The notes beneath the pieces were generated by a model. That model was not told the DNA's origin and made no database searches. It saw only the letters and a list, made by a program, of their open reading frames with translations. 44,796 nucleotides of DNA, from positions 1 through 44,796 of the forward strand of contig JADHWD010000003.1 of assembly GCA_016783645.1 (NCBI GenBank). Direction: 5' to 3'. The stretch is from a bacterium (GTDB taxonomy: Bacteria > Electryoneota > Tariuqbacteria > Tariuqbacterales > JADHWD01). Positions within the stretch are counted from its first letter, which is position 1, and the number at the start of each line of letters is the position of its first letter. The position numbers and the translations under genes are program-made. Below, in pieces: positions 8,291 through 32,351 of this stretch.

Positions 8291-8513
8291 ATTTCACCTC
8301 AATCCTGCAGTAGTATCCCTATATGGCAGGCCGGAGGCTTGTCCCCCGGCAAATTGTGCGGGGGATGAATCCCCCGCCTACCCTGAAAATTATAAGGACA
8401 TTACCAAACCCGCCGATGATAATACAGAACCGCCAGAGCGGCAAAAGGCACAACATCTATCGATGAAGCGCCTTTGCCGATTTCATTCGCTGAGGGGATT
8501 TAACTATTCAGTA

Positions 8514-9413
8514 CTACCCCAGAACTCCAGCCACTGTGGACGGCAGCATATTCGCCTGCGACATCATGGAGATGCCGGTCTGCATTAATATCTGCGCCCT
8601 GGTGAAGTTCATCATCTCCTCCGCCATATCGGTGTCGCGAATGGTGGATTCCGAAGCGGTGGCGGTCTCCTGGCTGATCTGCAGGTTCAATATAGTGTTC
8701 TGCAGACGCTCGACCATAGAACCGATGAATGTCCGTTCTATGTCCTTGGAATTGATCGCCTCATCGATGGAATCGATAGCAGCTTGAGCTGATGCCGTTG
8801 TACAGACATCAGAACTATCGATACCGAGGGCTGAAGAGGTCATACTGCCCAAGTTCACATAGTAGTAGTCTTCACCGACGGTGTTGTTCTGCCCAATGTG
8901 GAACTTGATACCGTTGTCATTGGTGGTGGAAGCGTTGTTGTAACCGAGCGCCAGGCAGGTGCCTGAAGCTGAGGTACCTGAATAGCTGCCGTCAATCAGG
9001 TTCAAACCGTTGTAGTTGGTGACCTGGGCAATTCTTGTGACTTCCGACTTCAACTGCTGGAACTCAACATTGGCAACCATACGGTCAGTCGATGTCAAAG
9101 CGCCGTTAGACGCCTGAATGGCGATCGCGCGCATCCTGATCAATTTCTCATCGATCACCGATAGCGCGCCTTCAGCTGTCGCCAGCAGGTTGACATTGTA
9201 GTTGGCGTTTCTCTCCGCTTCCACCATACCTGATAACTGAGCGCGGAATCGCTCGGAAATACCAAGACCCGTAGGGTCGTCCCAGGCGTAATTGATACGC
9301 ATTCCTGAAGACAACCTTTGAATCGAGGTATCCATGCTATTCTGCGTCACCCACAGATTACGCTGGGCGGTCAACGCCAACACATTGTGATTAATTCGCA
9401 TACTCATGGCCAA
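8514..9413 (-). CDS. fliC: Flagellin
   Basis: 299 aa; conserved N-terminus (RINHNVLALTAQRNL...SIQRLSSGMRINYAWDDPTGLGISERFRAQ) and C-terminus (MNFTRAQILMQTGISMMSQANMLPSTVAGVL); two sigma-28 promoters upstream. Confidence 0.97.
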   Translation of the reverse strand: MAMSMRINHNVLALTAQRNLWVTQNSMDTSIQRLSSGMRINYAWDDPTGLGISERFRAQLSGMVEAERNANYNVNLLATAEGALSVIDEKLIRMRAIAIQASNGALTSTDRMVANVEFQQLKSEVTRIAQVTNYNGLNLIDGSYSGTSASGTCLALGYNNASTTNDNGIKFHIGQNNTVGEDYYYVNLGSMTSSALGIDSSDVCTTASAQAAIDSIDEAINSKDIERTFIGSMVERLQNTILNLQISQETATASESTIRDTDMAEEMMNFTRAQILMQTGISMMSQANMLPSTVAGVLG

Positions 9414-9816: not shown

Positions 9817-11757
9817 TCACGCCACCGCCGTTTCCGGCATCTTGAACGATTCCGACTTGGTAAAATATTCTTTATACCACATCAATACATTCGCCGCCAT
9901 CCACACCTTCAACGCCTTATCTCTATCGTAATTGCCCGAAGCCCATTTCAATAATCCTTCACGGTCGAAAAAGTCCGGCACGCCATCCATCGTCAAATCC
10001 AAGAACAACTGCGACAGCGATTTAGTGAACCATCGATCCAGCGGCACCGGGAAAGAATACTTCTTCCTAAATAAAATATCCGGCGGCACCTTATCCACAA
10101 AACTCCGCTTCAATATATATTTGGTCGTGTCAAGCGTCTCCGAAATCTCCATCGCATTCAGGCGCATACAGATAGATTCATGGAAGGAGGTATTCCAATG
10201 CAGTTTGTATTTATGGGGAATGTACGATACAAAGTGCAGAAGCTCCGGGTCGGTGAAAGGCACCCTCCCCTCCACCGAAGCCGCCATTGTGGTCACATCC
10301 AGCCGGTTGAGCAGGCAGGGCAGATGCACCGTCTCCATCATATATAAATATTTATTGTATAAATCAAGCTCATCGACAGCGTTGAACCGCCGTCTCCAAA
10401 AATCGGCTATCTGGGTGAATTCATGATAATTTTCCAGCACATTCCGGTCGAATATCGAGTTGATATCATTCTGATTGAACCATCGGTAGACCGATAAGAA
10501 ATGGTCAAGTTCGCTGTCGAATGTAGTCTTGCCGTAAAGCCGCATCAAAGCGTTATTCAATAACTTGCGCTGATTCTTGGGCAGATCCATACGGCTGCGG
10601 TAATAATCTATCGGACTCCGGAGTATCACTCCGTATCCGCCGAATAATTCATCCGCCCCTTCTCCCGACAAAACTACCGTTATCCGCTCTTTCAATATCT
10701 TCGACATCAAGTAGAGCGGAACTTCATTGGGAACGGATAAAGGCGCATCCTTGAACCTGATCAATTCTCCCATAGCCTTGAAATAATCATCCTCCTCCAT
10801 TGTGATCTGAGTATGGTCAGTTCCCCAAGCCGCCGCCGCCTGGCCGCTGTATTTGAATTCATTGAATCCCTCTTCCGGGAAACCGATAGCGAAGGTTTTT
10901 AACTGCGAATCCATCTTATCCGCCATCAATCCCACTAATATCGAAGAATCCAATCCGCCGGACAAATACGCTCCCAGCGGCACATCGCTTATCAACTGCC
11001 GGTCCACCGATTTGGTCACCAGTTCCCGCACCCCGTCGATATAATACTGCTCGGTTTTTTCCTCTTTCTCCGATTCCGGCACCACCGGCAGTTTCCAATA
11101 ACAACGCCAATGCAGTTTATCGGGGATAACCGTCATGCAGTAACCGTGCGGCAGATTGTGTATGCCTTTAAATAAAGTTTCATCGCCCATCACCGTCTGA
11201 TAATGCGCCAGATAGAATCCCAAAACTTTCAGGTTGGGCTCTCTTTTTAATCCGGGAAAAAGCAGTAATGATTTGATCTCCGAAGCGAAGATGAAATTAT
11301 CGCCGGCCATAGCGTAATATAGCGGTTTTATGCCGCTCCTATCGCGGGCGAGGAACAGTTTATGTTCCGCGCTGTCCCAGATAGCGAAGGCGAACATGCC
11401 GTTCAATCTTTCGACGCAGTTTTCGCCGTATTCCATATAAGTATGCAGAAGGACTTCCGTATCGCTGCGAGTACGGAATGTATGACCCTTAGTTTCCAAA
11501 TGCCTGCGAAGTTCGCGGTAGTTATATATTTCGCCGTTGAAAGTGATATGAAAGCGGTTAGTCGAATCGCTCATCGGCTGAGCGCCGAATTCTATATCGA
11601 TGATCGCCAGCCGCCGGTGCCCTAATCCGATACCGCCGTCGATATATATCCCCCGCCCATCGGGTCCCCGATGCGCCAGGATATCGGTCATATTATCCAG
11701 GACCGCCCGGTTTATTCTCCCTCCCGCAAGATTGAATATTCCGGCTATTCCGCACAT
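9817..11757 (-). CDS. asnB: Glutamine-hydrolysing asparagine synthase (AsnB family)
   Basis: 646 aa; N-terminal MCGIAGIF with catalytic Cys2, HRGPDG, and synthetase motif SGGLDSS. Confidence 0.93.
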   Translation of the reverse strand: MCGIAGIFNLAGGRINRAVLDNMTDILAHRGPDGRGIYIDGGIGLGHRRLAIIDIEFGAQPMSDSTNRFHITFNGEIYNYRELRRHLETKGHTFRTRSDTEVLLHTYMEYGENCVERLNGMFAFAIWDSAEHKLFLARDRSGIKPLYYAMAGDNFIFASEIKSLLLFPGLKREPNLKVLGFYLAHYQTVMGDETLFKGIHNLPHGYCMTVIPDKLHWRCYWKLPVVPESEKEEKTEQYYIDGVRELVTKSVDRQLISDVPLGAYLSGGLDSSILVGLMADKMDSQLKTFAIGFPEEGFNEFKYSGQAAAAWGTDHTQITMEEDDYFKAMGELIRFKDAPLSVPNEVPLYLMSKILKERITVVLSGEGADELFGGYGVILRSPIDYYRSRMDLPKNQRKLLNNALMRLYGKTTFDSELDHFLSVYRWFNQNDINSIFDRNVLENYHEFTQIADFWRRRFNAVDELDLYNKYLYMMETVHLPCLLNRLDVTTMAASVEGRVPFTDPELLHFVSYIPHKYKLHWNTSFHESICMRLNAMEISETLDTTKYILKRSFVDKVPPDILFRKKYSFPVPLDRWFTKSLSQLFLDLTMDGVPDFFDREGLLKWASGNYDRDKALKVWMAANVLMWYKEYFTKSESFKMPETAVA

Positions 11758-11759
11758 GA

Positions 11760-12134
11760 TTATCTCTTCTTATCTATAAATATTGACGGCTTCGGCGATT
11801 TGGACGCATATTTTAAGACCGCTTTATGCATCTTCCGCATTTGATTGACAGCTTCCTTCATATCAAACTGCATTCTCCTAATCACAGCTTCCAGCCGGAT
11901 ATCCTGCTCTTTCAACCGGTTAAATATCTCATTCATTAGATCCGCATCCGACGGCGGATCGTCTTTGGTAACTCTCTCCAGTTTTGCGAGGATTCCCCGG
12001 CGCTTCTCTATCAGTCTCTTCACTCCGGCATTTGTATGCTCACGCGGGTCTCCGATAAAATCTTCAGCCGCCTGCAGGATTTCCCGGCATAATTGTATGA
12101 AAGTATTCTCTTTTACGGCGCTGTCCGCAGACAT
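11760..12134 (-). CDS. Small helical protein, possibly a flagellar chaperone (FliT/FlgN-like)
   Basis: ORF track starts at 12182. Start at 12134 (MSADSAVKENTF) is preferred because it gives a TAATG stop/start overlap with the upstream gene. Charged, helical, no clear family motif. Confidence 0.55.
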   Translation of the reverse strand: MSADSAVKENTFIQLCREILQAAEDFIGDPREHTNAGVKRLIEKRRGILAKLERVTKDDPPSDADLMNEIFNRLKEQDIRLEAVIRRMQFDMKEAVNQMRKMHKAVLKYASKSPKPSIFIDKKR

Positions 12135-12757
12135 TAATTCTCCAGGTAAGTCCGCCGGAAAACTGGCAGCATCTGTTCCCACTTCTGCAAAGCCTCTACC
12201 AGCTCATACTCTAAAACATCCGCCAGCCCCACCCAATCCTCTTCCTTCTGAACTTCATACATCTGGTCGAAGATAGGCACCAGCATTTCATCCTGGTAAT
12301 GCTTGATGCTCTTGCCGCCGGAGAACTCTTCCTCAATATCGATATTCAACATCCCTGTCAAAGCGGCGACCGCTTTGACCAGCCATCTCAAGCCGTCGAC
12401 TAATTGGGAATAGTTCTCATTCGCCCGGATATCATCGCCCATGCGGAACATCTCCGCCGTTTCCAAAGCGACTCTCTGCAGAATCAGCAGATGTTCATAA
12501 GTGGAATCTAAGGCGTCATTCGCCAGCTTATAGGGATCGGCGGTCCGCAGTTCCAGCGTCTCCACTTTAGTCAATGGAAAATGATAGAAATCCACCTGCC
12601 CGCCGCCCGATAAACTCTGCTCGTTCACCATGATATTAGTGATGACTTTCCCTTCAGCCTTCATCCGGTCAGACAGCTTCTCCATCACTTCTCCGAAGAT
12701 GGTCTCATCTCCCAGCGTCAATGCCTCGGGACTGCCATCGATTTTGAAATCAAACAT
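12134..12757 (-). CDS. Conserved hypothetical protein linked to the flagellar locus
   Basis: 207 aa; ATG start, stop overlaps the next ATG (TAATG); motifs VETLELRTADPYKLANDALDS and LVDGLRWLVKAVAALTGM; helical. Confidence 0.7.
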   Translation of the reverse strand: MFDFKIDGSPEALTLGDETIFGEVMEKLSDRMKAEGKVITNIMVNEQSLSGGGQVDFYHFPLTKVETLELRTADPYKLANDALDSTYEHLLILQRVALETAEMFRMGDDIRANENYSQLVDGLRWLVKAVAALTGMLNIDIEEEFSGGKSIKHYQDEMLVPIFDQMYEVQKEEDWVGLADVLEYELVEALQKWEQMLPVFRRTYLEN

Positions 12758-12912: not shown

Positions 12913-13104
12913 TTTAATACCGTCATTCCGGCTTGTCCGGAATCGATTCCCGACGCGTCCGCTGTACAGCGGACTTGCGGGAATGACGAGTATTGGGATG
13001 GCCGCCCTTATATATGGACACTATTTATGTGGTGTCGACTGCGGAGAGTCGACACCACATATTTTTTTCATTCACTATTCTAAATTCTTAATTCTAAATT
13101 TTTC

Positions 13105-16100
13105 CTACATTCTTTCCATCATACGGAAATAGCTTCTCTGCTTCAACTGATTACTGCATTCACCGAATATTTTGCATCCGCCGCATTGGAAATTCCGCAA
13201 ATCGCAGGATTTACATTTTCCGCTGTCAATCATCGCCCTCCGATGCCAGGCGCAGTCCTCGGCGGATAATTTGGAGAACTCTTCGCTGTCCCGCACATTT
13301 TTGGGACCGGTATAATTAAGGTAAGGGCAATTGCCGATTTTACCTTGAGGATTTATCACTATAGTAGTGGCGAGTTCGCAGCCGAAACTTTTACAGCCGG
13401 AACTGAAACGCCCTTTCCTCAGCCATCTCGCTTCAGGATAACGCTTCAATATCCGTCCAACTAACGATTCCTCCTCGTCAATATGACCCTGCTTCAATCT
13501 GCCTTTGGGATTAGCCACTCCTAAAGCGCAGGTTATGCGGTCGGAATCGAAGGAAGCGATGAAACCGCCCAAATTTCTCTCAATATCACCGGCATTCTCC
13601 GGTAGTACAACCATTGTGATCTCAACCGGTACCTTATGCTTCAACAGCAGTCTGACCGCATTCACCGCTCCGGCATGGCTTCCGGCTCCTCTGACAGCGT
13701 CATTGATTTCCGGGGTAATCCCGTCCAGACTCACTTGCGCTGATTCCAGTAAATCACCTAATCTTTCCGCCTTCGCTTCATCAATCAATCCGCCGTTGGT
13801 CAATAATATCAGCCTCAATCCCAAATCCGCCGCTGCTTGCGCTATTTCCAAGAAATGAGGATGGGTCAAGGGTTCGCCGCCGGTGAATGTCACCGTACTG
13901 CCCTGTCCCATCAAACTGAATTTTCGTAACACCTTCTTCCATTCGTCAACGGATAACTCATCGTTCATGCTCTCACCCGCCGAAAAATAACAATGGCGGC
14001 AGGATAGATTGCAATTTCGAGTCAAAAATAACTGAAGGCTGCGGGGATTGCGGTCGATGTCAACCTGCTTGATATCGAAACTTTCGCGGAAGTTATTGCG
14101 GTTCATGATTTCAATCAAACTGCGCAGTTTCATCAAAGCGGTTTCCGGGTCAAGCCGGAACTTCTGCGCAGCGGAAGCCGCCGCTTCGCCCATCGTCGCT
14201 CCTTGAGACATCGACTGCGCCATATTAAAGCCCGCTGTATCGGTTACTATCCAAGCCGCCCGCTCCGGCGCTATCACCAAAGATTTGCCCGGATAATGAT
14301 GAATCGACAGTTCCCGCGGAACATCCAGCTGTTTGGGAAAGTCGATGATCAGCGATTCATGCAGATGATTCGCCGGTTTGAAATCCATAATCCATTCCGG
14401 CTTCCCGCTGTCAGCTTCAGTCTTAACCGACACCTTGAAACCTTTATATGTATAATCCAACTTCATCATAGTATCGATGATATAATCCGCACGATGCCGG
14501 TAAGTATGTCCTTCTAATATCTTCGCCCGCGCTTTTCCCGCCATCGCGGTTCTCAATTCGGGATGTGTCAAATAATATCTTGCCTTCTCCGCCGCTTCTT
14601 CCGGCGAACGATAAACTGCTATATCTTCATTTATATCAAATATCTCTTCCAATGCGCTGCGGTAATCCGTGAGTAGAAATCCTGCGGCGGCGGGGACATC
14701 GAAGGCTCTTTGATTGACTCCCTGCGGCATCTGCAAATGCGTCCAGTTGAAGCAGATATCCGCGCTTGCATAAATTAGAGGAAGTTCATCCGAATACCGC
14801 ACCGGCGGCTTCAAAACCGGCTTCCCGCCGTCGAACAGCTCCTCCCATCCCCCATCGCCGAATATAGTCAAATTCATATCCGCCAGCGGAATTAAATATC
14901 TCATCCGCTCTTCCCGGCTTAACTTGGAAGACCAGCCCGCTAAAAAATTCCGCTTCAATTCGCCGCTGTCCAGTTTCAATTCATCCGCTAAAGAATTTAA
15001 AATCTCCGGGATGACCCTGCCGTCGCTCAATTTCATCCGCCTGATTTCGCTGGTAACCATTTCCGATCTCAATTCAGCCGGTATTCGATTGAAATATTTA
15101 GCGGCTGCGCCTTTGAGGCTGTCAGCCGCATAAGCTAAACGCAGGTTGACACTATCATTCCGGCGGCGGGGATTGAATACCTCCGGGTCCGACGCTAACG
15201 GCAGATAATGAACATTATCGAAACCCTGTCCGCGAAGTATCTCCACATAGTAATTATCCCAGACAAACAGCGCCTGCGAAAGCGATTTCAGCTTTTCCGG
15301 GTCAGGCATCACATAATCGGGGCTGTCAACATAATAGACCGCCGATTTTATCCCCAGCTTCTCCAATTCGCCGATGAGAAATCCTTCACTGTCGAAACCG
15401 AAATGGTTCACGGTGAACAGGAAATCCGGCCGGAAACCGCCGGCAGTGTCCAGCAATTGATAGATGAATCTTTCCGCTTGGGAAGGATCCGCCATCATAT
15501 CCGGCGTCAATCTCACGGTCCTGAATTCCGCAGCTTTATCCGCCAAAGCTTTCAAAATACTGCCGGTCACCAGATAGGGATAATCTACCGCCAGGATTTT
15601 AATCCCCTTTCCCCGCCTTTCATGTGCTGGCAGGCCGGGGGCTTGTCCCCCGGCAAATTTCGCGGGGGGATAAACCCCCCGCCTACCATAACAATTATTT
15701 AAGTATTCCGTCTGGAATAGAGGAGTCAAGGGGGATTTTTCACCGAGATATTTCAAAAATAGCGTTGATGCTTTCCGCAAATTAGAATAAAGTCCCGCCG
15801 TCTTCTCCGCCATAGATTTCAAATCTCCATTGGGAAGAGCTTCCTTACCAAAGTGAAAATCCAGAGTCAACGGCCTTGCTGAATCCTGTTTATAGCCTAT
15901 AGCGGCGATATCGCTGTCAATTTCAGCCAGCGCTCCTCCCGCGGCTTTGACAGCGTCGATATCCAAGGGCTGACAATCAGCCAGTCTCATCAGCTTTTCA
16001 GCTTCGCGCTCTCCCCGTTCAGCCAATTCTATCAAAGAGCGTACCGAGGACACTGCCTCATCTAATTCTAACGCAAATCCCCTGCCATTTATATCATCAT

Positions 16101-17349
16101 CATAACTTGTTTCATTACAGTCATTTGCCATCTCCAGCCAGGTCTTCCTATAGGCAGTATTTACCCTTCGCCGGATTTCATTTCCGCCGGGATTCAGGCG
16201 CTTCATCTCCCACAATCCGCCTTCATCGAAACAGGTGCGGCTGACGATAACTCTGTCCGCCGCTTGAATTATCGATTCTATTCTATCATCACGGATCAAA
16301 GCATCGGCAATTTTTTCCATTAATACCGGAGTTATCAGCCGATGGCAGGCGAAATCGCTGCAGGGATGCTGGTAATTGCAGGGAGCGCAGTCGATCGACG
16401 GTTCAAGCAGCAAATGCCCTTCGCCATAGGGGCCTGTCTCCGAGGCTAACGCTGGTCCCAACGCCAGTGATAACACTCTTGTACCAACCGCCGAAGCCAA
16501 ATGCTGAGTCCCCGTGTCATTGGATATGAGTAACGAACATTTTTGTAACAATGCCGCTAACAGCGGAATAGTGGTCTTACCCGCCAGATTGATTGCATTC
16601 GCTATCCCCTCAGCCGCTTCCTGCGCTAATTCGGATTCTTTAGGGGAGCCGAATATTATGATTCTATATCGTTCGGATAACGCTTTGCCCAGTTCATTCC
16701 AATATTCCGCAGGCCATCGCTTGGCTTCAGCCGACGCCCCGGGCTGAAATCCGATTAATATTTCGGAATCCTTCACTCCGCTTGATTGTAACAGTTTATC
16801 CGCCTCGGCCCGGGCTTTTTCACTCACATTATATCTAAGTCTTGAATTATCTTTTGTCAGTTGTCCGCTTTTGAATCCGGCGGATAACTTATACAGATCC
16901 ACTAAATTGAATTGATTGAATCCGCGGTTGATGGACGCGTTCTGGAAATGGCGCATCCAGGGATTTTTCACCGCCGCGAAACCCTCTTCGTCCAGCGTCA
17001 ATCCTATCTTTTCACCCGGCAGTAACGAACTCAGCACCGCGCCTAACCGGTTATGCGTCAGATTGAAAACAGTGTCGTAATCATATCCGGTTATACTCTT
17101 GAGAAAATCTTGGAATATTTTATAATGAACGGATAGACTCCCTTCTTTCAAAGGCAGCATCAGGCTTTCCAGCGGCACAACATGCAGCGCATCCACATCG
17201 GGAATACCTTCTATCACTTCCCGGAAATGAGCGGCGCCCATCAATCCGATGACCGAACCAGGATACCTCTCCTTAAGGAAAGTGATAAGGGGCGCTGTCT
17301 GCAGAATATCACCCATTCTGCCGAAGTTGATGAGCAGGATCCGTTTCAT
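13105..17349 (-). CDS. Giant fusion protein: GT9 (heptosyltransferase-like) + helical domain + CgeB-like glycosyltransferase + PqqD/RRE-like domain + radical SAM/SPASM domain
   Basis: 1414 aa. N-terminus MKRILLINFGRMGDILQTAPLI and LISNDTGTQHLASAVGT (GT9); middle region IKILAVDYPYLVTGSILKALADKAAE... (CgeB-like); LSIHHYPGKSLVIAPERAAWIVTDTAGF...EAAASAAQKF (PqqD-like); CNLSCRHC, TFTGGEPLTHP and CKSCDLRNFQCGGCKIFGEC (radical SAM + SPASM). Confidence 0.85.
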   Translation of the reverse strand: MKRILLINFGRMGDILQTAPLITFLKERYPGSVIGLMGAAHFREVIEGIPDVDALHVVPLESLMLPLKEGSLSVHYKIFQDFLKSITGYDYDTVFNLTHNRLGAVLSSLLPGEKIGLTLDEEGFAAVKNPWMRHFQNASINRGFNQFNLVDLYKLSAGFKSGQLTKDNSRLRYNVSEKARAEADKLLQSSGVKDSEILIGFQPGASAEAKRWPAEYWNELGKALSERYRIIIFGSPKESELAQEAAEGIANAINLAGKTTIPLLAALLQKCSLLISNDTGTQHLASAVGTRVLSLALGPALASETGPYGEGHLLLEPSIDCAPCNYQHPCSDFACHRLITPVLMEKIADALIRDDRIESIIQAADRVIVSRTCFDEGGLWEMKRLNPGGNEIRRRVNTAYRKTWLEMANDCNETSYDDDINGRGFALELDEAVSSVRSLIELAERGEREAEKLMRLADCQPLDIDAVKAAGGALAEIDSDIAAIGYKQDSARPLTLDFHFGKEALPNGDLKSMAEKTAGLYSNLRKASTLFLKYLGEKSPLTPLFQTEYLNNCYGRRGVYPPAKFAGGQAPGLPAHERRGKGIKILAVDYPYLVTGSILKALADKAAEFRTVRLTPDMMADPSQAERFIYQLLDTAGGFRPDFLFTVNHFGFDSEGFLIGELEKLGIKSAVYYVDSPDYVMPDPEKLKSLSQALFVWDNYYVEILRGQGFDNVHYLPLASDPEVFNPRRRNDSVNLRLAYAADSLKGAAAKYFNRIPAELRSEMVTSEIRRMKLSDGRVIPEILNSLADELKLDSGELKRNFLAGWSSKLSREERMRYLIPLADMNLTIFGDGGWEELFDGGKPVLKPPVRYSDELPLIYASADICFNWTHLQMPQGVNQRAFDVPAAAGFLLTDYRSALEEIFDINEDIAVYRSPEEAAEKARYYLTHPELRTAMAGKARAKILEGHTYRHRADYIIDTMMKLDYTYKGFKVSVKTEADSGKPEWIMDFKPANHLHESLIIDFPKQLDVPRELSIHHYPGKSLVIAPERAAWIVTDTAGFNMAQSMSQGATMGEAAASAAQKFRLDPETALMKLRSLIEIMNRNNFRESFDIKQVDIDRNPRSLQLFLTRNCNLSCRHCYFSAGESMNDELSVDEWKKVLRKFSLMGQGSTVTFTGGEPLTHPHFLEIAQAAADLGLRLILLTNGGLIDEAKAERLGDLLESAQVSLDGITPEINDAVRGAGSHAGAVNAVRLLLKHKVPVEITMVVLPENAGDIERNLGGFIASFDSDRITCALGVANPKGRLKQGHIDEEESLVGRILKRYPEARWLRKGRFSSGCKSFGCELATTIVINPQGKIGNCPYLNYTGPKNVRDSEEFSKLSAEDCAWHRRAMIDSGKCKSCDLRNFQCGGCKIFGECSNQLKQRSYFRMMERM
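15600..15740 (-). repeat. Intergenic-type palindromic repeats translated in frame inside the 1414-aa fusion
   Basis: Encodes SPLTPLFQTEYLNNCYGRRGVYPPAKFAGGQAPGLPAHERRGKG. TTGTTATGGTAGGCGGGGGGTTTATCCCCCCGC is identical to intergenic sequence from 36411; a related copy lies at 8325-8381. Confidence 0.93.
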
Positions 17350-19007
17350 CAGACCGCTTCAGCCTCCATGTTGAGCCGGGCGGTATAATATTCCAAATCG
17401 TCAAGCATCATCTCCGTCATTTTGAGCGCGTCTTGATAAATCCTCCCCGCCATATCAGCGATATAATGCAGATCGCCGGATTCGGTGTTCTTCTTCTTGA
17501 TTCTGAAGGTGGTGGCGATATGCCCCATCGCCGAACGGGTCAATTCCATGTGATATATGGCGTTATCGAGGATTATCATCTCTTTAGTCAAGCGTTTGAG
17601 CGCTTCGACATTCGGCGGGTCGATCACTTGGCAGAATTCGTCAATCAAATTGACGCCTTTTTCGGCTAACTCCCTCATTTGCATCAAATCCGCCTCAAAT
17701 CTTTCAACTTCCCGTTCAAATTCACCGCTTTCCGGCGGCGTGAAATACCGCATGAAATCAGGTTCGCCGGCGTACCTGCCCCCGGACAAGAAATTTTTCC
17801 ACATCCGCCGGTAAAGTTCCTTGATATAATCATTGAATGTCAGTGATCTTTTTATTAAAGGAACTAAATTCCAAAATCCGTCCTCATCGAACACCGGCTT
17901 GGATATCTTCACTTTCGACCATTTAGGTTCATCAGTCAGATAGTCAATTTCATTGGATATTATCTCATCGAAATTACGCATTACCCACAGGACATCTTCC
18001 GGAGTGATATATTTATGGCAGGTATGATCGAGGCATTTGACATCGTAACCGCAGGGGGCGCAGGAGATATTGGCTTCTAAAACTACCGCCTTTTCAGTAT
18101 AGGGCCCCGTATCCGCCGGGCGCGCTTCACCTAAAAACAGCGCGACTGCAGGTGTGCCAACTGCGGCCGCAAGGTGCATAGTTCCGGTGTCGTTGGTCAC
18201 TAAAAATTTACAGCGCTTCAGCATAGCGGCGAGTTGAGGCATGGTGGTCTCCCCCAATGCGTCGATCACTTCAACCCGGCATTGCGATTTCATCTCCTTC
18301 AGCTTCTCCCCTTCAGAACCGGTGCCGAAGACGATTACGCGGTAATTCATCTTTTCATACAGCAATTCCGCTAATTTGGCGAAATATTGCGGCTCCCAGC
18401 ATCTGTCCGCCGAAGAAGCTCCTAACTGAAATCCCGCGAATTCACCGGAATAGTCTTTCAGGAACTCATCGGGGAAGCTTTGCGCATCATAGGGGACTTC
18501 ATAATATTCCTTCCGTTCCAGCATTTCGATTTCGCCGGTGAGGTTGTACATATCCACTAAATTGATGCCGTTCTGCAGGCGGTTGCGGGCGACATTGAAA
18601 AAGTAATTCATCCAGGGATGTTTCACGATAGGCGCGCCGTCTTTAGTCAACACCATCCCCCGAACATCCTTGGAATCCGTTAAAAACGCTAACACGGCGG
18701 ATAGAGTGGTATGCGATAAATTAATCACCAAATCATATCCTGTCCCCACCCGTTCTATGAACTTATTCATATATGTGAAATGGTTCTCTATCGACAGCCC
18801 CTGGTCGGCGAGGCGGGGCACAAAGCGGTTCACATCCATTGTCAGCAATCGGTCAATCCCCGGAAATCCGCCGCATATCCCCCGGAAATCATCTAACACC
18901 AGCAGAGTCGATTCCGAGTCAGGATATTTCCGCTTCAATCCCCGCATCAAAGGCGTGGACTGTAACAGATCACCCATGCGGGTAAAATTGATGATTAATA
19001 TGCGCAT
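17349..19007 (-). CDS. GT9-family glycosyltransferase with C-terminal helical domain
   Basis: ORF trimmed from 19175 to MRILIINFTRMGDLLQSTPL (start 19007) because the longer N-terminus is translated repeat. FLVTNDTGTMHLAAAVGTPAVALFLG; CAPCGYDVKCLDHTCHKYI. Confidence 0.88.
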   Translation of the reverse strand: MRILIINFTRMGDLLQSTPLMRGLKRKYPDSESTLLVLDDFRGICGGFPGIDRLLTMDVNRFVPRLADQGLSIENHFTYMNKFIERVGTGYDLVINLSHTTLSAVLAFLTDSKDVRGMVLTKDGAPIVKHPWMNYFFNVARNRLQNGINLVDMYNLTGEIEMLERKEYYEVPYDAQSFPDEFLKDYSGEFAGFQLGASSADRCWEPQYFAKLAELLYEKMNYRVIVFGTGSEGEKLKEMKSQCRVEVIDALGETTMPQLAAMLKRCKFLVTNDTGTMHLAAAVGTPAVALFLGEARPADTGPYTEKAVVLEANISCAPCGYDVKCLDHTCHKYITPEDVLWVMRNFDEIISNEIDYLTDEPKWSKVKISKPVFDEDGFWNLVPLIKRSLTFNDYIKELYRRMWKNFLSGGRYAGEPDFMRYFTPPESGEFEREVERFEADLMQMRELAEKGVNLIDEFCQVIDPPNVEALKRLTKEMIILDNAIYHMELTRSAMGHIATTFRIKKKNTESGDLHYIADMAGRIYQDALKMTEMMLDDLEYYTARLNMEAEAV

Positions 19008-19047
19008 TTTATTTTGAAAATAGGGTTTAGGGGGGGTTAGTTCAATG

Positions 19048-19122
19048 TGGTGTCGACTCTCCGCAGTCGACACCATACATAATAATAACAATGTCTTAGT
19101 GTCATGCGGGGACGCATGACAC
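19048..19122. repeat. Composite of two hairpins (gtcgac type + GTGTCATGCG-GGGA-CGCATGACAC), copy 1
   Basis: Near-identical composite at 44681-44755. Confidence 0.93.
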
Positions 19123-19357
19123 CACCAGGAACTGTGCTGGCAGGCGTCCTCGCCTGCCAGTAATCCTATTTTCATGCTTCGGGGTGCGCCGGAGGCGCAT
19201 GAGGGTTTACTCTGAAAATAGGGTTTAGGGGCTGGGGTCTAGGGTCTAGTACCTTGTTCCGGCAGGTCTTGTCCCGCCCTTATGTCTATAATTTACAAGC
19301 ATAAGGTATCGACTGCGGAGAGTCGACACCACCTAACAGTATTCCCGATATGTTCTT

Positions 19358-19601: not shown

Positions 19602-21428
19602 TCAAATAACTTTCTTCTCCTTCGCCCAGTCGTAGAACTCTTTGATTAAAAGGAACACACCTTCGGTGCGGGTCAAATCCCCTTTGCCTTTGCGGATATG
19701 AGAAGCGATTTTATCGATACTGAGTTCCTCATCGGGGGAAAACTGGCGGAAAAATACTTTTAATTCTTCATCCTCGCCCGCCGCTTTCAATAAATTGCGG
19801 GTGATATTGGGATTATCCGCTTTATCTCGGATGCGGTGATCTCTTGAAGCGACCGCCTTCAGCATAGTTTCCATCCGATGCTTGTAAGTATGCTCCCGCA
19901 GAACTCGAAGGCGCGCCGCTTCCGCCATCGCCGACGCCTTATCGGGATTCTCCCAGTAATATTTCATCTTTTTCCGCAGTTCACTGATATCCCTGAAAGT
20001 ATCGATTTCCCGGCCGATATCGAACAACTCTCCCAATTCCGAGCGGGGATCGACTAATTGAAACGCGCCGCAGGCGGCGATTTCAAAGGTCCTGGGATTC
20101 ACAAAATCACCCTGTGGATTGACCCCGTTGTGATATGAAGAAGAATGCAGATTGATATTTATTTTCGATGCGTTGAATATTTTCACGCTGTCTTCGGTGG
20201 AAATACGCTCGGCGCTGCGCTGAATCAGCCGTCCCAGCGCCGAACGGGGATTCCATTCACTGCCCCATATCTTGAAGTCTTCTTCAAGCAGTTGTAAAAA
20301 GAAATGCTGGCGGTTATAGTAACCCGCGCCCGCGAAAGATAATGCGCTGCCATATTCAACTTGTTCCTCCGGCGGTAATTTCAAAGGTTTATGAACTTCC
20401 GGGTCGGCGGCAAGGGGCAGGTAATGGTAATTCTTCACGCCCATCCCTTCCAATTGCCGGATGAATTCACCTCTTTGGATGATGAAAAAATGGTCGTAGA
20501 AGGGAGCGAACTTTTTCCAGTAAGTGAACAGCCGGAAATCCTCCATGAACCAGAAGGCGGTGGGGATGTTCAACTGGCGGAATTCGGTCAGGGTTTCGGT
20601 GGTGAAAGGCGACTGCGCAATTCCGAATACCAAATCCGGCTTCCATTCAAAGGCTTTGGCTAATACCAATTCCGCCACGAACATGGTGAATAATCCCCGC
20701 AGTTTCCCCTGATGCTCTTCATTGGAAGTCACCTCTTTTATCGATTTGAAAGCGGGATAATAGAAACTGGAATCGAACATCAGCACTTCATGCCCCATCT
20801 CTTCCAGCGCCTTTTTACAATAACCGGCGATCGGCAGGGAGCCGCCGTACAGCGGACTGGGAAGTAATATTTTCAAACCGCGGGGAACTTCACATTCTTC
20901 TAAAGGAGTTTCTGTTTCCGAAGATTCCGCTTCACCCAATGAATCATAGAACCGGCGGTTCAGTTTGACAGAGGGGCTGTGTTCAATATAGTGGATATCA
21001 TGGGGAACGGCATGTTTCCTGAAAAACGCTTGCAAATGGCTGGGAGACTGCCCGGCGAAAACTAGCACATTCTCCAATAATCCGCTTAAATCTCTATTTT
21101 CACACGCAATCCGTAGAATATTAATATCCGCTTCAACAATAACCGGCCGAAATCCCCGCTGTTTTAGAGCTTCCGGCAGATAGCCTAATCCGAATCCCTT
21201 GACTAACATCCATCCCGGTGGTATATTTATCTTTTCCGCCAGCCGTTCCGCTTCCCGGGCGGGATTATAGGAACTGTGCAGTAATATATTTCCGGCTTTA
21301 AGCGTCATATCACCGTTACGGGCGGTGATAAGCTGATATTCGCCGGTTGATTCGGCTTTGACTATTCTATCCGCTAATTCCCGGTTATTCTTTGCGATAG
21401 CTTCGAGGTTTTTCTGCAGGTAGTTCAT
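19602..21428 (-). CDS. Maf-like N-terminal region fused to a CgeB-like glycosyltransferase
   Basis: ORF trimmed from 21518 to MNYLQKNLEAIAKNNREL (start 21428). Maf-like LLHSSYNPAREAERLAEK...LVKGFGLGYLPEAL; then LKILLPSPLYGGSLPIAGYCKKALEEMGHEV...FEIAACGAFQLVDPRSELGELFD (CgeB). Confidence 0.75.
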   Translation of the reverse strand: MNYLQKNLEAIAKNNRELADRIVKAESTGEYQLITARNGDMTLKAGNILLHSSYNPAREAERLAEKINIPPGWMLVKGFGLGYLPEALKQRGFRPVIVEADINILRIACENRDLSGLLENVLVFAGQSPSHLQAFFRKHAVPHDIHYIEHSPSVKLNRRFYDSLGEAESSETETPLEECEVPRGLKILLPSPLYGGSLPIAGYCKKALEEMGHEVLMFDSSFYYPAFKSIKEVTSNEEHQGKLRGLFTMFVAELVLAKAFEWKPDLVFGIAQSPFTTETLTEFRQLNIPTAFWFMEDFRLFTYWKKFAPFYDHFFIIQRGEFIRQLEGMGVKNYHYLPLAADPEVHKPLKLPPEEQVEYGSALSFAGAGYYNRQHFFLQLLEEDFKIWGSEWNPRSALGRLIQRSAERISTEDSVKIFNASKININLHSSSYHNGVNPQGDFVNPRTFEIAACGAFQLVDPRSELGELFDIGREIDTFRDISELRKKMKYYWENPDKASAMAEAARLRVLREHTYKHRMETMLKAVASRDHRIRDKADNPNITRNLLKAAGEDEELKVFFRQFSPDEELSIDKIASHIRKGKGDLTRTEGVFLLIKEFYDWAKEKKVI

Positions 21429-21686
21429 GATATTATTGTGTGAATTTTGGTTTTTTCGATTTGTATGCATTCCCACGCTGGAGCATGGGAACGAGAGAAA
21501 CCGCCTCTGCACCGTCATTCCCGCAAGCCCGCTGTAAGCGGGCGCGCCGGGAATCTAATTGTAACACCAAACCGATTCCGGACAAGCCGGAATGACATTA
21601 TGGTATTTTGGTATGCATTCCCACGCAGGAGCGTGGGAACGAGTGCAAAAACACTTCGATATTCCTTGTTCGATATTCGATATTCT

Positions 21687-24428
21687 TCAGCTTTTCCCAT
21701 CCGCCGCCAGATTCACCTTTTCCAACATTCTAATAATGCTCCTGTTGCCGGGATTATTTTTCAGAAATTCATTCAGATAATGTTTTGCGCCGGTATAATC
21801 CTTCGCCTTGTAAAGGGCTCGGCCGATATCCCGCATAATCTTCCCGTCTTCATCGCCCAGCGCCATAGCGGCGGTATATTCCTCCGCAGCCTTGTTGAGA
21901 TGTCCCTGATGTTCCAAACAGCGGCCTAAAGTGAGATGCGCTTCCCGCCTAATTTCATTCACCGCAATAGGATATTCACCGGTATGAAGTTCACAGTTGA
22001 AAAACCGCTCCAGCTGATTGCGGCATTCGGAATATAACTGCTCTTTGAAATAATTCATCGCCAGGCAGAATATTCCCAAAGCCGAATCCGGCCGCTCTTT
22101 CAATAGTATCTGTAATAATTTTAATGCAGTTTTATAATCATCGAACTGCTGAAAAATCTGAGATAATTTCATTAATGTTAATTCATACAATTCCGGACAC
22201 TCCTGAGCGGCGGAAATTGAAAATGCGGTTTTTTTCAGATGCTCCACCGCTTCAAGCTCCTGCCCTAAATACAGATGAAACCGCGCAGCGCTGTCGTTCA
22301 AATAGTTGTCGTAAATATCGGCTTTTAATTCTTTCTCGATCAATTCCAAATTGCGTCTGCATTTCAACATGAATTGTGAATCTTCAATATACCCGGTGTG
22401 AGAAATCGTGAAAGAGGCTTCCTCAATTTGAAATCTGTTCAAATCGACCGGCAATTTCTCCATCACCTTCCCGCTGAACTTAAAAGCCGGCGAGTTAGGG
22501 AATACTCTGTATCGATAACATACCTCCTTAGTCCTCTCATCGGAAACTTTAACTTTAAATACTGTTTTTTTCTTCCCGCGTAACCGCTTTTTAAAGGATT
22601 CCAAATCCTCCCGGTCGATTCTTTCATCGGCGTCGAGTATCAAGATGAATCTGCCTGCAGCCTTCTCCTGCGCGAGATTTCTCGCTTGGGAAAAATCGTC
22701 TTCCCAGGTGATGGATATCACTTCAGCGCCGTATCCGCCTGCAATATTTATGGTGTTATCCAGCGAACCGGTGTCCGCCACTATTATCTGATCGGGGATT
22801 CCCTGTATGGATGACAACAATTTCTCCAGGTTCTCCTCTTCATCCCGCGCGATAATACACAATGAGAGTAAAATATTCTTTCGTTTTTCATCCGCGCTGT
22901 TCAATGTGGCGTAAGCGGAATATTCGGCTTTTTCGATTTTTTCAAAAGATATTTTCAATCCGCCGGCGAAATAAGCCTGCAAAGCCTGGTCGGGCGCATG
23001 ATTATCCATCAACAAATCGCCGACCTTCTCCCAATTGGCACGGTTTAACTGTGCGGCTCTGAAGTAATGTTCCAAAGCGCTCCAGAACTGCATGGGAAAC
23101 TCCATCTGCATCAATCCCGGCATCAAATCCTCTCCTGAATTCCGCAGGACATCACCCCAGAACAGATGAAAATCTTCGCTTCCCGGTTTGCGGTGTATCC
23201 CGTTGAATACATTGCCGGATACGCATTGTTCGGCTTGGGAAAGGCATTCTCCGGCTTCTGCATCCGCGCCCATCTTATTCAATGATATTCCTTGAAATAA
23301 AGGAGCGTGAAAATCGGAATCACTATCCGAAGCCGCTAATCGGAAAAACCTCTGCGCCTCAAAATGCTCCCCCCGGAATTCGCACAATTTTCCCAGATTC
23401 AATAAAGTGCGGCGGTCAATTTTAATATCCAGCGATTTTAAAAGTAATGATTCCGCTCTATTGAAAGCCGAGAGATCTTTATCCGGCCATTTCACTCCGT
23501 AATATAACAGCGCTTCACCCGCGCCGGACAGTTTCTCCCATTCCGGTGTCCGGTTAATCCCTGGATTACCTGCTAACATATTCATAAGCTGTTCCGCCCG
23601 GCGCTTCAATGAATGTTCACGCCGGACGAGTTCACAAGACGCGGCGGCGATATTATTCAGTTCATCTTCACGCTTTAAATAACTGCTGATCTTGTTCAAA
23701 AGATTGTCCGGATTATAGGTCAACAGGTGTATCCCGTCTTGGAATAATCTGTCCAATCCCGAAGCGGTATCCTCAGTCAAGACCACAGTATTGCACGCCA
23801 TCGCTTCCAACAATCTTAAATTCACTGCGGGAAATAAGGTCTCATTGAGAACCATCCGGCTCTGAGAATATACCTGCGCCACTTCAAAAACGGAAAGATA
23901 CGGATCACCGTCGAAAATATTGAAATCGAAATTCTCTTCCAGCGCTTTCAAGATATTTTCTCTTTTGCCCCGCGTTCCCATATTACGGTTACCGACAAAA
24001 GCAATATCGTATTTCTTAGGCGCTTTGAATGGACGGTAGATATCGGTGTCCGCCGCTAAAGGAAACCATTGCTCATTCACACTGGTTTTTTTCAATCTTT
24101 CGGCTTCCGGCTGTTGATCGGTCAATACCAAATCGAATAATTTCGCATAAGGCGTCTGCCAGAACCGGTTGATAGTGGAATCGATGAAATAAGCGGCGGA
24201 GGGGATTCCGCAGGTCTCCAATCCTGACGGAAGAAACCGCTCCAAAGAATCCATGAAGATAATCCAATCGGGACGAAATCCCGCTCTATCCAGAACATTA
24301 TCGATAGTATAATCCTGAGGCGCTAAAACATGGCCGCAGTCTTCCTGCAGTCCTGCGCAGGCCACCTCTGCACCCATCTCCCGCAGTTCATCCTGCAGAT
24401 AGGGATAGTTTAACAGGATTATCTTCAT
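21687..24428 (-). CDS. CgeB-like glycosyltransferase + GT2 glycosyltransferase + TPR repeats
   Basis: 913 aa; MKIILLNYPYLQDELREMGAEVACAGL...LRLLEAMACNTVVLTED (CgeB-like), LSLCIIARDEEENLEKLLSSIQGIPDQIIVADTGSLDNT...ILDADERI (GT2), C-terminal TPR pattern. Confidence 0.86.
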   Translation of the reverse strand: MKIILLNYPYLQDELREMGAEVACAGLQEDCGHVLAPQDYTIDNVLDRAGFRPDWIIFMDSLERFLPSGLETCGIPSAAYFIDSTINRFWQTPYAKLFDLVLTDQQPEAERLKKTSVNEQWFPLAADTDIYRPFKAPKKYDIAFVGNRNMGTRGKRENILKALEENFDFNIFDGDPYLSVFEVAQVYSQSRMVLNETLFPAVNLRLLEAMACNTVVLTEDTASGLDRLFQDGIHLLTYNPDNLLNKISSYLKREDELNNIAAASCELVRREHSLKRRAEQLMNMLAGNPGINRTPEWEKLSGAGEALLYYGVKWPDKDLSAFNRAESLLLKSLDIKIDRRTLLNLGKLCEFRGEHFEAQRFFRLAASDSDSDFHAPLFQGISLNKMGADAEAGECLSQAEQCVSGNVFNGIHRKPGSEDFHLFWGDVLRNSGEDLMPGLMQMEFPMQFWSALEHYFRAAQLNRANWEKVGDLLMDNHAPDQALQAYFAGGLKISFEKIEKAEYSAYATLNSADEKRKNILLSLCIIARDEEENLEKLLSSIQGIPDQIIVADTGSLDNTINIAGGYGAEVISITWEDDFSQARNLAQEKAAGRFILILDADERIDREDLESFKKRLRGKKKTVFKVKVSDERTKEVCYRYRVFPNSPAFKFSGKVMEKLPVDLNRFQIEEASFTISHTGYIEDSQFMLKCRRNLELIEKELKADIYDNYLNDSAARFHLYLGQELEAVEHLKKTAFSISAAQECPELYELTLMKLSQIFQQFDDYKTALKLLQILLKERPDSALGIFCLAMNYFKEQLYSECRNQLERFFNCELHTGEYPIAVNEIRREAHLTLGRCLEHQGHLNKAAEEYTAAMALGDEDGKIMRDIGRALYKAKDYTGAKHYLNEFLKNNPGNRSIIRMLEKVNLAADGKS

Positions 24429-24806: not shown

Positions 24807-26222
24807 CTACACAGGTATATTCTTAATATATTCAACCGCGGTAGTAATCTGCCTTTCAGCCTCCGCCTCTCCTTCATCCGCCTTCACCATCAGATAATGA
24901 TTGGCTAAGGGCAGAGTCAAAGGATCTTTCGCTAATTCGCTTATCAGCCTTTCAAACTTTACGCTGTTCATTCGGCTTGACGGTTTATATCCTGTCTTCC
25001 CATTCCCGCTCAATAATTCAGTCCATAATCCCCGGTAAAATCCCGCTGAATCATACCAGCCTTCATTCAAGACATCATAAGTCTGTCCCGATTCATCGTA
25101 CCTTGATTTGCATAGTAGGACATCCTTCGGAATTTCAATCTCAGAAATCCGGTCTACATCATCTTCAAGAATACTCAAAGCGGTTTCCGCGGCGAATCCC
25201 GGCGGTATCATATTCCTGCAGGTGATTTCATTCCCGCAGGCGGGTTCATCCTCCCGGCAGGGCGCGCAATAGGGATAAGCCTGAATCACGATATGGCCGT
25301 CCCCTAAAGGTCCCGTTTCGTGTACTTGTGCGGAAGCGAAAAACAATCCTAATGTCCGCGTCCCCGCCGCCGCCGCTAACTGCAAAGGTCCCGAATCCGC
25401 TCCGATGAACAGATCCGATGATGCTAACACCCCGGCAAGTTCTGCGATAGTGGTCTGTCCGCTTAAATCCAATATTTCTATATTCTTAGGAAGCGATTTA
25501 ATAATAGCGGTGTTTTCAGTCCGGTCAGTTCCTATGAGGATGAACGCCGGGGATATTTTCCGTGAAAGAATAGTGATTAAATCGATGTATTTTTCATCAC
25601 CCCACCGCCGGATCTCCGCTCCGGCGCCGGGATGAACCGCTATGATATGCTCAAAGCCTTTATTTCTTATCGGATTGATAAATCTCCCTGCGAAGTCCCC
25701 GCCTGACTCGGCAACCTTCCATAGAGGATGCGGCAAAGGATACAGTTTTCCCGCATGTTGGCGGAAAATATCTGCTATATGGATGCGGGCGAAACGGCGG
25801 TGATGCCCTTGATTGAACAGCAGGCGCATATAGGGTGGATAACGGAAATCCCCGCTTTTACCGGCGGGGATGAAGCCCTTAACCTCCCTCGCATTAATTT
25901 GACTCAATATCAGTCCGGATAGAGTCGAGCGGTTGAGATTATAAACAATATCATAGCAATCTTCCCGCAGGGGCTTCATCTGTTCATCGAATTCCCTGAA
26001 TATCGCGGTTAAATCCCCGTTGAATTTCCTCCCCGCCATAGCGGGAAAATCGATGGGTATCATCTTGTCAACCGGGATGGAATCGATTGGTATTTCCTTC
26101 AGTCGGGAATCGGCTGCTATGGCCACTTCCCATCCGGCTTCACTTTTCAGGCGGTGCAAGAGCGGCAGAGTCTGGACTAAATCGCCCAGCCGGGCGAGCT
26201 GTATGACCAGCGCCTTCTTCAC
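24807..26222 (-). CDS. GT9-family glycosyltransferase (heptosyltransferase-like)
   Basis: 471 aa; MKKALVIQLARLGDLVQTLPLLHRL; HPGAGAEIRRWGDEKYIDL; LFIGADSGPLQLAAAAGTRTLGLF; CAPCREDEPACGNEITCRNMI. Confidence 0.9.
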   Translation of the reverse strand: MKKALVIQLARLGDLVQTLPLLHRLKSEAGWEVAIAADSRLKEIPIDSIPVDKMIPIDFPAMAGRKFNGDLTAIFREFDEQMKPLREDCYDIVYNLNRSTLSGLILSQINAREVKGFIPAGKSGDFRYPPYMRLLFNQGHHRRFARIHIADIFRQHAGKLYPLPHPLWKVAESGGDFAGRFINPIRNKGFEHIIAVHPGAGAEIRRWGDEKYIDLITILSRKISPAFILIGTDRTENTAIIKSLPKNIEILDLSGQTTIAELAGVLASSDLFIGADSGPLQLAAAAGTRTLGLFFASAQVHETGPLGDGHIVIQAYPYCAPCREDEPACGNEITCRNMIPPGFAAETALSILEDDVDRISEIEIPKDVLLCKSRYDESGQTYDVLNEGWYDSAGFYRGLWTELLSGNGKTGYKPSSRMNSVKFERLISELAKDPLTLPLANHYLMVKADEGEAEAERQITTAVEYIKNIPV

Positions 26223-26226
26223 CGCC

Positions 26227-29200
26227 TCATCCTATCTGTTCGATAAGTTCGGCGGCGGGTTGATTATCGGGATGAGACTGCAATATCCGCTGAGCGGTGT
26301 CCCGCGCCCCGGCTCTATCGCCCTGCGCCAATTTGATACCCGCTAAAGTGAACAGCGCTTCGATATTGTCCGGATTGATTTCCAAATATTTCTCAAGATG
26401 CCGTTTGGGATTATCCCAATCGTTGATCCGGTGTCCGGCGCGCACTGACAACATTAACGCCTGCAGGTTCTCAGGATTGAGCGTTAGCGTTTCATCGAAT
26501 TCCAGCGCCGCCCGCCCCGCGTTATCCTGCTCCAGATATAATATGCCCAATCCCAGATGCGCCTTTTCGGAAGCGGGATTCATCTTCAAAGCCGTCTTCA
26601 AATACCGTTCAGCGGTTTGATAATCCTTGCGCAGGAGGCATGCCGAACCCAATCCCAGATAAGGCTTCTCCGAATCCGGCTTGTATTCATGCGCCTTGTG
26701 ATAACAGGACTCCGCTTCCTCCAGCTTGCCCTGCTTCAATAGGCAGTGCCCCATCAAACGCTGGATATCGAAATCGTAATGCCCGTTGATACCGGGCATC
26801 TCTTTAAGAAGATCAATAGTCGCCAATGCCTTTTCGCATTTATTCAGTTTCTCCAATATTTCCGCTAATAGCACTAAAGTTTCACCCTCCGGCTGAATAT
26901 CCACCGATTTTTCCACATATTCATGAGCTTCTTTGAATTTTCCGCGCAGGAACAAGACTCGGCCCATCGCCGCTAAAGCTTTATGGTCAGAGGGAAAACC
27001 CTGTAATTTTTTTTGCAGGAGATCCTCCGCCTTAAGGTAATCCCTGCTTTCGATCAGCTTATTCACTTCCTCCAAAGCGTCAGCTTCCTCGAATTTCCAG
27101 TCATCATCCAGCTTCAGCGGGGCTTTAATCTCGAATCTTTTTTCGCTGTCCTCCTGATTGATCTTCAACCGTTTCAGCATAACGGAACCTCGCGGATCGC
27201 CTTCCGCCGCGAGTAAGCCTCCAGCCACCGATAACGCTTCCAACCTGTCAGGGGCGATATTCAACACCTTCAGATAATTATCCAGCGATGTCTTCATATC
27301 TCCCGCGCTTCTATGTTTTACAGCCTCATCCATCAATCGTTCGATTCCGCCATGCTCTTCGACGGCTTCACGATACACCTCGATTGTCTCTTTTGCCGCG
27401 CGTTCCCAGGTGAACTGCGATACTAAACGCTTCAATTCCGGATTCACCGGCTGGGACAAGGCTTTAATAACCGCTTCCCGGATAGTTTCCGGCTTATCCG
27501 GTTCGCAGTAATGGACATGTCCGCCCAGATAGTCTTTGATACAGCCCCAGGAGGATGCGGCAATATTACATCCGTAATAAGCCGCTTCCAAAGTCACTAA
27601 TCCCGGCAGTTCGTACCAGCTGGGTAATGCGTGGACTTTCGCCGCTTTGTAAGCGGATACCAGCATCTCGTCACTCAATCTGTCGAGGAATACTGTCTGT
27701 CCTCTGCGCTTGAACCTCTGGCACATCTCAGCGTACTTCGGCTGATAGGTGAATCCGCCGCTGGCGAATACTACCGGTATATCGTCATCTTCCAAAGCTT
27801 TCAACAACATCAACTGGTTCTTGCGCGATTCGATCCTCCCTACGCACAGGACGAAATCTTTAAGTCCGGTATCCCGGATGAACAATTCCGGGCTCACATC
27901 TATATCTTTGATATTACAGCCGTATTTAACGGGTTTTATTCTGCGGGCGAAGGGATAATCCCGTCTGATATGTTCAGCTTCGGTTTCTCCGCAGGGCATC
28001 AAAGCCGCCGCCTGACGGACCGTAAAACTGTTTTCCGCTATAGGATGGGGCTTAATCAAGTGCAGTCTCGCTAATTTCTCCTCCATGAATCCCTCCGGCT
28101 GTCCCTTGTCAAGATATTCCTTGAACAAAGCCGCCGCTTTTAGAGATTTATAAAGGTATCCTTCAAGGTCTTCATAAAGCGTGGTGACCACGAAGGGCTT
28201 CTTTTCCCGCATGGCGTTCTGCGCTATCATCTTGACCATTTCCGGCAGGACGAAATTGAAAGCGTGGACAACATCGTAATCTTTCAACGATTCCAGCCTG
28301 AAACCGAAATCGACCTTGACGCCTAATCTCTCCAGTCCTCCTTTGAGATTCTGCATCACAATGGTATCTCCGCCGGGAGCCTCCAAGGTATTGGGGCGGT
28401 TCTGCATCAGAATCCTCAAAGGTCGATCCTTCCGGGATTTAATCACTAAAGGCGCTTCTATACTCCGTTTGAAATCAATATTAGGATTAAGAGCTTTGAC
28501 CGCTGCATCAATCTGATGTTCAATCGTCCAATTATTCATTATATCTTTGCGGGCTTTGACGCCTTTATTTGCCGCCTCTTCGCGGTTATCATAAACATGG
28601 CGCATCAATTCAGCGGTGTGTTCCAGCGAAGGGATGCCCCAGGAAGTGCCTAAATAGACCGGATTATCGGTCAACTGCTCTTCGTCCACCGATTCCGTGC
28701 CCAATTTATCTATCAGATAAGAGTTATCATCGTTCATGAAATCGAGGTGAGCGCTGAAACGGGTGGCTAATACTGGCAGGCTCATCGCCATCGCCTCCAT
28801 ATAGGGCAGACCCCATCCTTCGCCGCGGGTGGGCAAAACATAAGCCTGGCAGGCTTTAAATAAAGACGGCATATTCTTTTCGGAAATCCTCTCGGAGACC
28901 ACCGCGATACGGGGTATTTGATTGATGTCGTATCCCAGATGCGCCACATATTTGCGGATTCTATCCTCAATCGATGAACCATCGGAATGATAGGCGCGGA
29001 TCACCAAAGCCGCATCATCGTCTTTAGTGAACGCCTTCAAATAAGCCTGCAGGAGAATATCCCATCCTTTGCGCTTCGACCATTGGAAATTAGCCAGGAA
29101 ATTGAAGCCCTTGATACCGGGAATCAGCATGGGAACGACTTTATCAGGATTATAAACTTCGATATCGATACCGATAGGGACAATTTTAATCTTCTCTTTA

Positions 29201-32249: not shown

Positions 32250-32351
32250 GTTAAGAGTTAAGAGTTAAGAGTTAAGAGTTAAGAGTTAAGAGTTAAGAGT
32301 TAAGAGTTAAGAGTTAAGAGTTAAGAGTTAAGAGTTAAGAGTTAAGAGTTA
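32250..32351. repeat. Tandem heptanucleotide repeat (GTTAAGA)x14.6 abutting the flgL ribosome-binding region
   Basis: Direct count of 14 full 7-bp units plus GTTA; ends 10 bp upstream of the flgL ATG. Confidence 0.98.

Follow-up and report, generated by a model that had tools for sequence, protein, structure and literature searches.

A GT9-CgeB-RRE-radical SAM-SPASM fusion in the flagellin island of Electryoneota: a candidate flagellin-modifying enzyme

A 44,796-nucleotide stretch of contig JADHWD010000003.1 (assembly GCA_016783645.1, positions 1 to 44,796; hereafter the window) from an uncultured anaerobic bacterium of the phylum Electryoneota carries, in its flagellin island, an uninterrupted open reading frame (ORF) that runs from ATG to stop at exactly 13105-17349 on the minus strand and encodes a 1414-aa protein. 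Two glycosyltransferases, an RRE (PqqD-like) domain and a radical SAM enzyme with a SPASM-type tail are joined in this single polypeptide. It is tentatively interpreted here as a bifunctional enzyme that modifies flagellin in one Electryoneota clade and whose radical SAM half may act on flagellin, plausibly by forming a thioether at C153 and C204, a cysteine pair that distinguishes the flagellins of this clade.

Domain Architecture of the Fusion Protein

The features of the fusion and its proposed substrate are listed below.

13105-17349, minus strand: GT9-CgeB-RRE-radical SAM-SPASM fusion ORF, 1414 aa (ORF and Pfam; 49% identical full-length orthologue in Candidatus Tariuqbacter)
16315-17349, minus strand: GT9 (heptosyltransferase-like) domain, aa 1-345 (Pfam PF01075; motifs, conserved Cys)
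15730-16314, minus strand: helical C-terminal extension of the GT9 module, aa 346-540 (similarity to the neighbouring GT9 at 17349-19175)
15628-15703, minus strand: 76-bp dispersed repeat, in frame in the GT9-CgeB linker (~39 further genome copies, 87-93% identity)
14455-15609, minus strand: CgeB-like glycosyltransferase domain (DUF3880 and Glyco_trans_1_2), aa 581-965 (Pfam)
14080-14319, minus strand: RRE (PqqD-like) domain, aa 1011-1090 (sub-threshold PqqD profile, StsB N-terminus, hhalign, predicted secondary structure)
13540-14058, minus strand: radical SAM core, aa 1098-1270 (PF04055; CxxxCxxC, GGEP)
13108-13395, minus strand: SPASM-type tail, aa 1319-1414, with seven conserved Cys (sub-threshold TIGR04085; Cys spacing)
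8514-9413, minus strand: flagellin with the clade-specific Cys pair, proposed substrate (alignments of flagellins)

The first-pass annotation, which gave no strand for the ORF, had divided it into GT9, CgeB-like, PqqD/RRE, radical SAM and SPASM parts, and this parsing was borne out by Pfam, by motifs and, for the RRE and SPASM parts, by sub-threshold evidence. The GT9 match (aa 82-324, E 4e-31, 108.6 bits against a cut-off of 22) is accompanied by a GxGD-type N-terminus, the motif DTGTQHLA and a Cys cluster at 321/324/330/335; residues 3-532 are 33% identical to the neighbouring GT9, with the helical extension common to both. In the CgeB-like part, DUF3880 (aa 672-729, 29.9 bits against 25.2) and PF13524 (aa 822-959, E 2.7e-31, 108.9 bits against 25) both exceeded their cut-offs, as did PF04055 in the radical SAM core (aa 1109-1258, E 7.8e-28, 98.2 bits against 29.5), where the cluster motif is CNLSCRHC at aa 1113-1120 and GGEP stands at aa 1157. 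The SPASM model TIGR04085 scored 23.5 bits, below its cut-off of 27. The seven-Cys SPASM pattern is present as C1324-x16-C1341 with GX4C followed by CX2CX6CX2CX5C, with slightly unusual spacing, and all seven residues (1324, 1341, 1379, 1382, 1389, 1392 and 1398) are kept in the Tariuqbacter orthologue.

The RRE segment is detectable, though below the Pfam cut-off: PF05402 gave 12.1 bits for the window and 16.6 for Tariuqbacter against 23.4 required. It is the sole place in the window's genome matched, below threshold, by the PqqD hidden Markov model (HMM), which also scores the orthologous place in the Tariuqbacter fusion, and the StsB N-terminus matches it with an E value of 3e-4. When compared by hhalign with the true PqqD proteins of Tariuqbacter, a five-row alignment that included three relatives reached a probability of 91 (E 9e-7); the alignment of the two orthologues alone gave no significant result. 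In the corresponding part of a low-confidence AlphaFold2 (AF2) model, three strands precede three helices. Thus, RRE/PqqD homology is supported at profile level through intermediates, and the predicted topology agrees with it. The Tariuqbacter genome also encodes three stand-alone proteins (L196, L198 and L199) that pass the Pfam cut-off for PqqD; none was found in the window genome.

Authenticity of the Fusion and Its Distribution

The same architecture was found in a second genome, that of Candidatus Tariuqbacter arcticus (phylum Electryoneota), where JABMRZ010000166.1 contains a single ORF of 1394 aa at the flagellin island. The two proteins are 49% identical across their whole length and syntenic, the order CgeB-GT9-fusion-207aa-140aa-AsnB being common to both genomes. 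Conservation is 56-61% in the RRE, radical SAM core and SPASM tail, 57% in the GT9 catalytic domain and 47% in the CgeB part, and the cluster cysteines of the radical SAM half are all kept.

A spurious fusion had been suspected because the 76-bp repeat sits at a domain junction. The repeat encodes aa ~549-574, and in a whole-genome search aa ~537-579 matched dozens of short places in the same genome, some with stops. The Tariuqbacter orthologue lacks the repeat, and its linker is 25 residues shorter (a net +25 aa in the window). Since Tariuqbacter carries the fusion without the repeat, both an assembly or repeat artefact and an origin of the fusion from the repeat were ruled out; the repeat is therefore a later in-frame insertion. 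Around the point where CgeB begins, the window copy has no in-frame ATG; the first is at aa 618, with a GTG at aa 594, which makes an independent start of CgeB unlikely.

The 76-bp family comprises about 40 genome copies, three of them in the window (15628-15703, 8324-8393 and 36403-36477), and its in-frame copy within coding sequence is reminiscent of protein-inserted palindromic elements. A second family of 75 nt links window positions 30013-30087 and 12916-12990 by a 93% inverted match; its copy in the 1528-aa ORF 26227-30813 is an in-frame stretch (VIPACPESIPDASADERTCGNDE). With repeats in frame in two ORFs, the window records at least two in-frame insertions.

The RRE-radical SAM part occurs in two of the 39 Electryoneota genomes, those of the window and Tariuqbacter. 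Among 85,462 species genomes, scanned by RRE patterns only, Tariuqbacter alone yielded a full-length relative, no further close relative was found among 386 genomes of the wider domain, and viral contigs contained no relatives of this part. The 386-genome search also returned 20 distant radical SAM loci with no flagellin nearby; these are not orthologues of the fusion and do not refute its flagellar linkage. Two large RRE-radical SAM ORFs considered as glycosyltransferase fusions (L177:4456-6942 and L178:6762-9416) proved to be methyltransferase (ArsM-like) fusions from unrelated genomes.

Relatives of the Radical SAM Half

In sequence searches, the best PDB relative of the RRE-radical SAM part was SkfB (E 4e-16), and the alignment to CteB, another PDB relative, spans the RRE and the core; both are sactisynthases (PMC6231123). 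The best NCBIfam match was StsB (117 bits against a cut-off of 625). An AF2 model built from a two-row alignment (mean predicted local distance difference test score, pLDDT, 49) was used for secondary-structure order; its top Foldseek matches over ~330 columns were SkfB, CteB, SuiB and TigE, and the ten best were all peptide maturases, which at this model confidence is supportive only. The cytosylglucuronate decarboxylase BlsE and DesII were also among the relatives, with SkfB ranking higher in both sequence and fold searches. Judged by these comparisons, the RRE-radical SAM part most resembles sactisynthases of the SkfB/CteB/StsB type.

A Clade-Specific Cysteine Pair in Flagellin

Because sactisynthases act on cysteine, the flagellins were examined for this residue in a set of 79 full-length sequences from Electryoneota. 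Cysteines at two aligned positions were present in all three flagellins of the radical SAM genomes (one from the window and two Tariuqbacter paralogues) and in none of the other 76, of which 75 are Cys-free and one has a single Cys elsewhere. In the window flagellin these are C153 (8955-8957), within GTCLALGY, and C204 (8802-8804), within DVCTTASA. Sister to these flagellins in the tree are 20 family f5 sequences (support 100/99), which carry the same 20-residue insertion and mostly have Thr at the C153 site and Ser at the C204 site. The clade flagellins gained the pair within the stretch that separates the N-terminal from the C-terminal D1 segment. Relative to the solved flagellins shown, C153 lies within an insertion, and C204 immediately precedes the C-terminal D1 helix; therefore, both would be expected to sit on the outer portion of D1.

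Proposed Function and Alternative Explanations

In the proposed mechanism, the RRE would bind flagellin in the cytoplasm before export, and the radical SAM core would abstract hydrogen from it and form a link through Cys, the most likely being a thioether from the Cys sulphur to a backbone or side-chain carbon, as in SkfB and CteB; the GT9 and CgeB domains would add sugars to Ser/Thr residues nearby. Between the genes of the Tariuqbacter operon there is no room for a separate precursor-peptide gene, as a locus for a ribosomally synthesized and post-translationally modified peptide (RiPP) would have, and none is conserved, which argues in favour of a protein encoded at the locus as the substrate. 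Tariuqbacter lives as a strict anaerobe in anoxic sulfidic water (PMC10439189), a habitat in which a thioether would be expected to last better than a disulfide, which would tend to be reduced. It dominates the bottom water of Lake A. The first-pass annotation had envisaged a flagellar protein as the target of radical chemistry as well as sugar transfer. The co-occurring Cys pair supports that idea; action of the radical SAM half on flagellin, its product and a common target of the two halves are predictions.

A more specific version, somewhat unlikely as it stands, holds that a RiPP-type thioether cross-link at the co-evolved Cys pair yields a covalently stapled, glycosylated filament, so that a bulk structural protein would be a substrate for RiPP chemistry. 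Glycosylation and methylation are established modifications of flagellin. If the cross-link were real, peptide-maturase chemistry of small natural products would be used on a filament of thousands of subunits, by bacteria whose sulfidic surroundings make disulfides unreliable.

Several observations weigh against action of the radical SAM half on the flagellin cysteines. The clade with the enzyme is also the clade with the cysteines, but this amounts to one evolutionary event, with no independent replicate. The sactisynthase NCBIfam models scored far below their cut-offs (SkfB 71.7 bits against 300, in addition to StsB), and RRE-radical SAM enzymes also perform other chemistry, the methyltransferase fusions showing that this domain pair may extend beyond RiPPs. 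The flagellin AlphaFold model, based on a two-row alignment, has a pLDDT of 44, at which the closeness of C153 and C204 is not readable. In addition, Cys378 of FliD is conserved in both radical SAM genomes and replaced by A, V or S in the five others aligned there, so the gain of Cys may be wider or unrelated.

This FliD residue and the unlinked stand-alone PqqD genes of Tariuqbacter suggest that the radical SAM half might modify another flagellar or non-flagellar polypeptide, such as FliD or an unlinked peptide. That is rather unlikely in view of a gene locked into the flagellin island, of two conserved clade-specific cysteines in flagellin against one in FliD, and of an operon without a conserved small precursor gene. 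Fusion to two glycosyltransferases and the kinship with the sugar-acting BlsE and DesII would also fit a radical SAM enzyme working on a glycan or nucleotide sugar (epimerisation, deoxygenation or decarboxylation), with the Cys pair incidental; an RRE and a seven-Cys SPASM tail are, however, typical of peptide-acting enzymes, and the higher rank of SkfB in both searches and the uniformly peptide-maturing best fold matches likewise make a sugar substrate unlikely.

Two further explanations separate the Cys pair from the radical chemistry. In a strict anaerobe (PMC10439189) and within a single clade, it could be a plain disulfide or neutral drift unrelated to the fusion, which is improbable: both positions are still Cys in the two Tariuqbacter paralogues, sulfide would be expected to reduce a disulfide, and, FliD excepted, the other axial proteins show no parallel enrichment (FlgL cysteines are not common to the two radical SAM genomes, and FlgK of other families has 0-3). 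Alternatively, since Cys replaces the Thr/Ser of the sister family, it might be an S-glycosylation site for the island glycosyltransferases, the radical SAM half doing something else. SunS is indeed the best NCBIfam match of the GT2 domain in ORF 21687-24428 (E 1.9e-13), but its score of 50 compares with 350 needed and genomes whose flagellins lack Cys also contain relatives of this ORF, which leaves this the least probable of the readings. Action of the fusion on flagellin is preferred, tentatively, over each of these.

The Flagellin Island and Neighbouring Genes

The placement between FlgL and flagellin noted in the first-pass annotation reflects a phylum-wide island, which in the window extends from FlgL (31317-32240) to flagellin (8514-9413). 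Comparison of the window with 16 loci gave the order FlgK-FlgL-(GT/TPR genes)-GT9-CgeB-GT9-(CgeB)-207-aa protein-flagellin-FliD, with variations. The GT9 and CgeB parts are mostly separate neighbouring genes in families f3 and f7 and fused in family f6; in family f5 there is no CgeB partner at that place. The other genes of the island in the window are as follows.

9817-11757, minus strand: AsnB-type amidotransferase (Pfam, locus comparison)
11760-12182, minus strand: 140-aa protein with an orthologue in Tariuqbacter (locus comparison)
12134-12757, minus strand: 207-aa protein of the flagellin island (present in 36 of 39 genomes)
17349-19175, minus strand: GT9 glycosyltransferase (Pfam)
19602-21518, minus strand: CgeB-like glycosyltransferase (Pfam)
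21687-24428, minus strand: CgeB-like, GT2 and TPR protein (Pfam, NCBIfam; GT2 weakly matches SunS, an S-glycosyltransferase)
24807-26222, minus strand: GT9 glycosyltransferase (profile match)
26227-30813, minus strand: protein with a methyltransferase, two GT4-like parts and TPR (profile matches)
31317-32240, minus strand: FlgL, distal island border (synteny with FlgL of other genomes; flagellin similarity)

The 207-aa protein has no Pfam match and is possibly a flagellin-specific chaperone or glycosylation partner. Among the loci compared, the AsnB-type gene stands at the flagellin locus only in the radical SAM clade and its sister family f5; both carriers have the 20-aa flagellin insertion. 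Tandem arrays lie between flagellar genes at 32250-32350 (GTTAAGA units) and 40347-40416 (14-nt TTCCGTTCTCTGTT-like units).

Comparison with Known Systems

Each part of the fusion is of a known kind; no described system joining them was found. Literature searches for flagellin together with radical SAM, sactipeptide or S-glycosylation, in which the hits were assessed by title, abstract and term counts, yielded no paper that describes such a system or reports a radical SAM modification of flagellin. A genome survey notes RRE-glycosyltransferase (PF00535) fusions, of an architecture unlike the present one (PMC12710340). The GT9 and CgeB parts correspond in place, order and sequence families to those of other Electryoneota flagellin islands, where they form separate or two-part fused genes, never with an RRE-radical SAM part. 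The ArsM-like fusions, among the closest RRE relatives, also carry RRE-radical SAM-SPASM and another enzyme on one chain, but their partner is a C-terminal methyltransferase and the ORFs listed for their loci include no flagellar genes. The sactisynthases SkfB, CteB and StsB have the same domain order, RRE-radical SAM-SPASM/Twitch (PMC6231123); the fusion differs from them in scoring below the family cut-offs, in standing behind two glycosyltransferases, in the absence of a small precursor peptide and in having a full structural protein as its proposed substrate. The flagellin lysine methylase FliB of Salmonella (PMC7181671) likewise provides a non-glycan modification of flagellin; it methylates lysines, unlike the cysteine chemistry proposed here.

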